DNA of 34,581 nt from Candidatus Methanoperedentaceae archaeon. GTDB taxonomy: Archaea > Halobacteriota > Methanosarcinia > Methanosarcinales > Methanoperedenaceae. How positions within the stretch are numbered: the first letter of the stretch is position 1; each line of letters starts with the position of its first letter. The notes beneath the pieces are model-generated. The model did no database searches. It was given only the letters and a program-made list of their open reading frames with translations, and was not told the DNA's origin. The stretch is from NCBI GenBank assembly GCA_003104905.1, contig PQAS01000008.1:1-34581 (forward strand), read 5' to 3'. Below, piece after piece: positions 25,885 to 26,950 of the stretch. Position numbers and translations under genes: made by a program.

Positions 25885-26278
25885 AGCGTAATTTAGCGCA
25901 ATAATTAAAATAGTTTTTCCAGTTTTTATTAGAATATTTTGATTTTTTGGATTTAAAGCCCGTAAATATGAAAAAAGAACGATTTTGGCATACTGTGCCA
26001 GTACAACTCGATGACTCAAAAAAATTATCCAATACAGTTATTATTGACAATATTTTTTCAAAAAAATTGTAAATAAGTGTGTTAAGCTAAAATAATGTGC
26101 ACCCCTTCGTTTCCACTGGAGAATTTATTTGAACATAATTATGACATAGAATTAAAAATTAAACAATAATAATACATATATTTTAAAAAAAGTCCAGGAT
26201 AACTAATACTAGGTAAAAATAACAAACTATATGTTAGTATTTTATATACGTATCCTCTAACCTTTGTTTCAATTGAAA
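25885..26278. other. A/T-rich intergenic region between acs and the winged-helix gene
   Basis: No gene is supported. The left part must hold the acs promoter (a TTTTAATTA-like box about 35 bases ahead of the start). A 5-5-5 inverted repeat TGGCA/TGCCA is at 25986-26000. The rest is low-complexity A/T with several TATA-like strings. Confidence 0.5.
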
Positions 26279-26290
26279 AGTATATATACT
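26279..26290 (+). promoter_or_regulatory. palindromic TATA element ahead of the structured leader
   Basis: AGTATATATACT is a perfect 12-base palindrome. As a TATA box it would start a transcript near 26311 and give the winged-helix gene a leader of about 110 bases. An alternative box (TTTTATATA) lies at 26240-26248. Confidence 0.4.
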
Positions 26291-26349
26291 AATAATTACA
26301 TCTATTCACAATGTCGTTCACAAAATGAAGACTATTTCACCAGAAGGAA

Positions 26350-26415
26350 ACATCGGAGGGGAAATCCGGATGTCAAACTGTCCGTCTCGATGGGCGGACA
26401 GTCTTCAATTTTTTT
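26350..26415 (+). promoter_or_regulatory. structured mRNA leader with two hairpins and a T run
   Basis: The first stem pairs ACATCGGA (26350-26357) with TCCGGATGT (26365-26373), with one bulge. The second pairs ACTGTCCGTC with GGCGGACAGT (26377-26402): ten pairs including one wobble, hexaloop TCGATG. T7 follows at 26409-26415, so the second stem looks like an intrinsic terminator placed a few bases before the start codon at 26423. A ribosome site (GGAGGGG) lies in the loop of the first stem. Confidence 0.55.
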
Positions 26416-26417
26416 GA
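26370..26417 (+). CDS. possible leader peptide, 15 residues
   Basis: ATG 26370 is 8 bases after a strong ribosome site GGAGGGG (26355-26361). The frame reads MSNCPSRWADSLQFF and stops at TGA 26415-26417. It runs through the whole second hairpin and stops 5 bases before ATG 26423; its stop overlaps the GAGG site of that gene. This layout fits a leader peptide whose translation controls the hairpin or reinitiation. It rests on signal placement alone. Confidence 0.4.
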   Translation: MSNCPSRWADSLQFF

Positions 26418-26422
26418 GGATT

Positions 26423-26950
26423 ATGAAAATAAGGCTTGAAATCGAAGGAAAAAATGCCGGCAGCATTAATTACAGGGGTGCTGATTGTATCGACCTTGCA
26501 GCTGCGTATCTTAATTCAATAGAGGCTGATGAAGTGCAGGTACATCTTGTTAAAGATGATGGGACAAGAGCAGATGCCGAGTTCGAAGGTGAATTCCCGG
26601 TAATTTCTGCAATCAAATTCATACTTGCGGCTTCAAAAACAGGGGTGGAGAGCACATCCGGGATTTCTATACAAAACAATATCAATGAATCCCAGATATT
26701 AACCTTAAAAGAGCGATTGGAAATGTTCTTGAGATTTGAATATCCCAGGGTCTGGTTCACATCGCTTGATGTTAAAAAACAATATGAGTCTGTTTACGGA
26801 AAAATCGGCCTCAGCACCGTATCAACCTATCTTGCACGGATGTCCAGGGAGAATATACTTGTCCGAAGAGGCAATCGAAACCAGAGAGAATATCGGTTCA
26901 AAGATGAAAATAATATCATCCGAAATATGGAATTCGGACTGGTAAAGTAA
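26423..26950 (+). CDS. winged-helix protein, hypothetical
   Basis: From ATG 26423 the protein is 175 residues. An in-frame reading goes back to 26264 but would translate the promoter and leader hairpins. The N-terminal part (MKIRLEIEGKNAGSINYRGAD..., residues 1-75) is an alpha/beta domain of unknown type. The C-terminal 80 residues form a winged helix: TSLDVKKQYESVYG, STVSTYLARMSRENIL and the wing RRGNRNQREYRF. It is probably a DNA-binding regulator. A GAGG site precedes the ATG. Its own leader appears regulated (see the hairpins). I do not recognise the N-terminal domain. Confidence 0.7.
   Translation: MKIRLEIEGKNAGSINYRGADCIDLAAAYLNSIEADEVQVHLVKDDGTRADAEFEGEFPVISAIKFILAASKTGVESTSGISIQNNINESQILTLKERLEMFLRFEYPRVWFTSLDVKKQYESVYGKIGLSTVSTYLARMSRENILVRRGNRNQREYRFKDENNIIRNMEFGLVK

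Follow-up and report, generated by a model that had tools for sequence, protein, structure and literature searches.

Upstream of a winged-helix gene in a Candidatus Methanoperedens-type genome lies a short leader that can be read in two ways. It could encode a peptide whose translation governs the gene behind it, or it could act as a structured RNA. The window analyzed here is a 34,581-nt stretch of this genome, in which the only Rfam matches are two tRNAs. An SD-like GGAGGGG (26355-26361) precedes an ATG at 26370 that opens a 15-codon frame (MSNCPSRWADSLQFF). The frame runs through a 10-11 bp stem (26377-26387/26392-26402) and seven T (26409-26415) to a TGA at 26415-26417. The start codon of the winged-helix gene follows five bases past this TGA at 26423, and the Shine-Dalgarno (SD) sequence of the gene, GAGG (26416-26419), overlaps the stop. 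The next sizeable frame downstream of the gene is on the opposite strand, so the leader appears to serve the winged-helix gene alone.

The earlier note on this DNA proposed leader-peptide attenuation, and its description of the parts holds. The ribosome-like site ahead of the frame, the 10-bp stem, the T run, and the frame stop placed five bases ahead of the gene and overlapping its ribosome site are all present in the sequence. The T run was described as lying behind the stem; it begins six bases past the stem and does not abut it. The features of the locus are given in the table.

Features of the winged-helix gene and its leader, in window positions.
Feature	Positions	Strand	Support or conservation
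Palindrome TTTCAATTGAAA, consensus TTTCNRYTGAAA; candidate DNA operator overlapping the BRE	26267-26278	.	Kept in most of 27 relatives
TATA box TATATATA	26281-26288	+	Invariant positions in alignment A1
Two TTCAC direct repeats (26305-26309, 26317-26321); candidate operator	26305-26321	.	Second TTCAC invariant in 27 leaders
Purine stretch AAGGAA/AAGGAG	26344-26349	+	About 90% conserved
Hairpin 1, ACATCGGA / TCCG(G)ATGT, loop GGGGAAA, one bulged base	26350-26373	+	Pairing, RNAalifold, core identity
15-codon open frame, not a conserved gene	26370-26417	+	Length 1-35 codons in relatives
Hairpin 2 (the "terminator-like" stem), arms 26377-26386 and 26393-26402	26377-26402	+	100% of cells paired, covariation
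CTTC - T run - GAGG segment, putative ribosome-binding site of the gene	26403-26419	+	CUC/GAG pairing
Putatively regulated gene, 175-aa protein	26423-26950	+	Orthologues, AlphaFold, Foldseek

The short open frame in related leaders

The leaders of 26 orthologous loci from other Methanoperedens-group genomes were compared with that of the window (27 leaders). The ATG of the short frame is present in all 27. The frame it opens spans one codon in seven leaders, 7-8 codons in four, 15-19 in twelve and 22-35 in four. The earlier note had named relatives without the frame as evidence that would speak against it, and the seven ATG-stop leaders are such relatives. They include the closest one (L002, protein 91% identical), which reads ATG TAA; the decisive codon is TCA in the window versus TAA in L002. 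Linker and loop lengths vary by one or two bases among the relatives, and consequently the frame shifts through the stem of hairpin 2. A search for constancy of the leader peptide, its codons or its stop across the 27 leaders returned none.

That the frame ends adjoining the gene is explained by TTTTTTGAGG and the gene's own ATGA, which carry stops in two of the three frames. The frame is a product of one codon and the stops at these two sites, and is not beyond chance. The leader peptide was thus rejected on the 26 relatives. The T run comprises at least five T in 21 of the 27 leaders and is broken or absent in the other six (L009, L012, L013, L021, L023 and L026). Being inconstant as well as offset from the stem, it makes a weak case for attenuation by termination and for an intrinsic terminator alike.

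Conserved structure of the leader RNA

Folded as a single sequence, the window leader is only moderately better than its shuffles (z = -1.9 for 121 nt and -2.4 for the leader). Across the 27 leaders the mean z is -2.8, with values below -2 in 22, and this together with the covariation of the stem places the stem far beyond chance. RNAalifold predicts exactly hairpins 1 and 2 when no structure is supplied, and slid controls paired less than 40% of cells.

The earlier note suggested looking for compensatory changes in the stem, and they were found. Hairpin 2 is paired in 100% of cells over 26 distinct sequences, with compensatory changes at seven of ten pairs (alignment A2), a tally of sequences and not of independent events. 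G-U pairs also occur in it. It is only 70% identical between genomes, yet fully paired. Hairpin 1 is paired in 98.6% of cells, and its end pair is exchanged between A-U and G-C in nine sequences (alignment A2). Its GGAGGGG core is 99% identical between genomes, compared with 43% at the four-fold synonymous sites of the gene. The conserved "ribosome site" and ATG "start codon", which had been taken for translation signals, are by this alignment the two strands of hairpin 1. Conserved structure with compensatory changes marks the region as a predicted structured cis-regulatory leader.

Two further helices are plausible, with covariation absent or nearly so. The purine stretch at 26344-26349 may pair with CTCC/CTTC at 26403-26406 and close a junction. 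This unproven helix is paired in 87% of cells, with both sides changed in only one of four pairs. The CUC/GAG pairing at the ribosome-binding site is found in 81% of cells without compensatory change. A hairpin that masks the SD is possible in all leaders, formed with CTTC/CTCC or with codons 5-7 (CTTGAAA), again without covariation.

These pairings bear on the most viable alternative, a small-molecule riboswitch in which hairpins 1 and 2 form a metabolite aptamer and CTCC switches between the purine stretch and the ribosome site. Its near-invariant core, its covarying helices and two mutually exclusive CTCC pairings, each in more than 80% of cells, would suit such a device. We nevertheless consider it improbable, as the single controlled gene is a regulator, the conserved part would make a very small aptamer, and most other families lack hairpin 2 and the CTCC segment. 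The crcB (fluoride) and TPP riboswitches, which occur in both bacteria and archaea (PMC2864571), likewise are structured and conserved 5′-leader elements. They differ in sequence and architecture from the window element, which has no Rfam match and no transporter or metabolic gene downstream. In a search of Rfam release 15 (4227 families), nothing reached the gathering threshold in the region and nothing was credible at a relaxed E-value.

Gene specificity and spread across archaeal families

Searching with a covariance model of the leader identified a single strong match (E = 2e-15 or better) per genome in 31 genomes of the family, and every one of these matches ends at the start codon of the winged-helix gene. 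No other match in the family genomes was better than E = 0.09. Two genus members in which the winged-helix gene was not detected also lack the element by this model. Comparison of the relatives establishes, at the level of sequence, a conserved RNA structure that is specific to one gene and carries no conserved leader peptide.

Orthologues of the winged-helix gene occur in 51 of 60 relatives, and a sample of 295 genomes from the whole phylum contained 118 with one. The gene is single-copy in most of the order. Hairpins with a GAGGGGA loop precede it in about a dozen families (given here anonymous labels, f1, f2 and so on), often as tandem pairs. There is one copy in f1, f3, f11, f17, f21, f22, f30, f34 and f35. 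Two tandem copies are usual in f2 and in f5, which is probably Methanosarcinaceae, and two are also found in a single f32 leader. Every leader with the core has it upstream of the true SD, about 28 to 104 bases ahead of the gene. Hairpin 1 and its counterparts are constantly placed before one homologous gene.

The stems around GAGGGGA differ by family (e.g., GCCGCAA/TTGCGGC, GCCACAT/GTGTGGC and AACCATT/AATGGTT), and the copies tend to sit in hairpins. For 69 distinct copies, the true flanks gave a pairing score of 10.5, compared with 8.2 for family-swapped flanks (0 of 1000) and 6.8 for shuffled flanks (0 of 300). A model built only from the tandem-copy family f5 found the f3 and f2 leaders as the best matches in their genomes (E = 0.003 and 0.007). 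Within this family covariation is nil, and the stems hardly vary. Ten near-complete genomes from two f5 genera without a detectable gene contain no credible copy of the element. The core is absent before the orthologues in f10, f12, f14, f28 and most of f6, and is therefore not essential to the gene. The element is best read as ancient.

Individual leaders deviate in various ways. In L170, from the distant family f35, the layout is window-like, with GAGGGGATGG, a GC-rich hairpin and then CTCCCCATTTTTTT. The first GAGGGGA copy is intact in L089 and L140 (genus g13), and their second hairpin has lost the loop core and become a stem with a four-base loop (AATCYACC-TTCT-GGTGGATT). In the f14 leaders L178, L180, L204 and L205 there are several GGGGATGGATTGG-like repeats, with no evident hairpin. 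At L110 (G054:C3:16199), ATCTGAGGGGAT sits within a 10-bp stem (TTGCACCCTG/CAGGGTGCAA) in an intergenic position away from the winged-helix gene.

A wider regulon was not apparent. Matches to the RNA core elsewhere in 12 genomes were mostly coding or lacked a consistent downstream gene. No viral or mobile copies were found by protein, and five IMG/VR contigs match the DNA patterns.

The core could instead dock or divert ribosomes. GAGGGGAU mimics an extended Shine-Dalgarno sequence, GAGGUGAU, and could hold or divert the 30S subunit; presumably seven of its eight bases are complementary to the 16S 3′ end. Its location upstream of the true SD in every core-bearing leader fits such a role. We regard this as clearly unlikely, since the single mismatching G is invariant, contrary to what ribosome binding would predict, and the core is held within conserved hairpins some 28 to 104 bases before the gene. 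Purely structural hairpins, serving as mRNA stabilizers or a weak intrinsic terminator, have if anything slightly poorer prospects. A stable stem followed by a T run does occur in most Methanoperedens-group leaders, but this proposal leaves the near-invariant sequence of hairpin 1 and the tandem GAGGGGA hairpins of other families unexplained.

The regulator and its possible feedback

The gene had been called a probable DNA-binding regulator, and structure prediction agrees. In the AlphaFold model, residues 1-71 fold into two beta-beta-alpha units, which a disordered linker joins to a winged helix at the C terminus (95-160); by this model the protein carries a winged-helix transcription factor domain. 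Foldseek aligned the winged helix with RosR, Fur, MecI and PadR (probability about 1, E = 0.007-0.09). No Pfam family scored above its cut-off for the 175-aa protein, with FUR falling below it. The N-terminal beta-beta-alpha-beta-beta-alpha domain, encoded at 26423-26640, is modelled at pLDDT 92, and a search of PDB structures found no structural relative for it. Proteins with two beta-beta-alpha units (f1, f3 and f22) go with one hairpin, and those with one unit (f2 and f5) usually go with two. A relation between unit number and hairpin number is suggested by these sequences but is not a rule, as one-unit families with a single GAGGGGA copy also exist.

The promoter carries conserved DNA motifs of its own. 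The palindrome TTTCNRYTGAAA combined with a TATA box occurs only at this locus in each Methanoperedens-group genome with a match, the reversed control gave 0, and the consensus is kept in several families. TTCAC/GTGAA repeats near the expected transcript start are about six-fold enriched over shuffles in Methanoperedens-group leaders. Most families show an excess of such repeats, even f10 and f12, where the RNA element is missing. A direct repeat, TTCAC-N7-TTCAC, lies at the expected transcript start (26304-26322). The palindrome and TTCAC repeats resemble DNA operators, through which, on the simplest assumption, the regulator would repress its own gene. They do not delineate a regulon: this locus alone has the palindrome, and TTCAC pairs elsewhere lie in or near coding regions with no consistent downstream gene.

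At archaeal promoters the transcript start is expected about 25 bases past the TATA box, which would put it near 26310 here. The TATA box is about 62 bases upstream of hairpin 1, and the hairpin element is therefore probably transcribed as part of the mRNA. This bears on whether the element could act as DNA, either as a cruciform or as an operator bound by the regulator, in place of an RNA. Such a role would suit a gene product of DNA-binding type and a promoter with other conserved DNA motifs. It is very unlikely: hairpin 2 contains G-U pairs and shows compensatory changes, the same loop sits on quite different stems in other families, and the element lies beyond the TATA box in the direction of transcription.

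Weakest of all is ribosome-mediated attenuation of the trp/his type, in which a ribosome on the 15-codon leader peptide decides whether stem and T run end transcription: short frame, stem, T run and gene follow in order in this one genome, but neither the frame nor its codons are conserved, and the T run stands apart from the stem and is frequently interrupted, so that the comparison of relatives corrects a tempting misreading and leaves it scarcely tenable.

We favor a gene-specific cis-regulatory mRNA leader through which a trans-acting factor, most likely the regulator itself, sets translation, with transcriptional self-control in addition; we put its probability at about 50%. The untranslated leader of about 110 nt would act as a cis-regulatory RNA, and the factor would recognize the hairpin or hairpins that present GAGGGGA. 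In the Methanoperedens group, the order would be the GAGGGGA hairpin, the second covarying hairpin and a maskable ribosome-binding site. Binding or refolding could then alter access to this site and so set the amount of regulator translated. Action on translation is suggested by the ribosome site, which lies directly behind the element and can be masked. The ligand would be a protein. The regulator itself is the simplest candidate, since the element accompanies no gene but the winged-helix gene and is lost where that gene is lost. We speculate that such feedback involves the beta-beta-alpha N-terminal domain, and that transcriptional self-control operates at the conserved TTTCN4GAAA and TTCAC motifs.

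Feedback of the proposed kind has a precedent in archaeal L7Ae, a protein that regulates its own translation by way of a k-turn in the 5′ leader of its mRNA (PMC5539422, PMC6298567). Both cases have a 5′-leader hairpin in an archaeon and, here by inference, translational feedback on the gene behind it. The window hairpins lack a k-turn (tandem G-A pairs and a 3-nt bulge), and the window gene encodes a winged-helix regulator, whose binding to the leader is a prediction. Read by eye in the alignment, hairpin 1 contains no k-turn: all its pairs are canonical, and a single base is bulged. EarA, which regulates the archaellum in Euryarchaeota (PMC5512572, PMC10665913), is by description similar, since it too is a euryarchaeal regulator of transcription and short binding sites recur at the promoter it targets. 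The archaellum family PF04659 is present in most relatives, and in the window's own genome the locus inspected for an archaellum link is a chemotaxis region whose promoter was uninformative.

The leader RNA was previously unclassified, judging by Rfam and by the open-access papers that were searched. A bolder proposal, which we hold only tentatively and consider doubtful as a whole, is a new archaeal regulatory RNA class in which GAGGGGA-loop hairpins, whether one or a tandem pair, are bound by the product of the downstream gene. Its protein would combine a novel beta-beta-alpha RNA-binding domain with a winged helix and exert self-control at both the DNA and RNA levels.

Established cis-regulatory mRNA elements of archaea are few. 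This one appears to be archaeal, is small enough for direct testing, and is tied to a single regulator in about a dozen families of methane-making and methane-oxidizing archaea and their kin. Binding of the regulator to its own mRNA leader, if real, would give this archaeal transcription factor a second feedback loop at the level of RNA.
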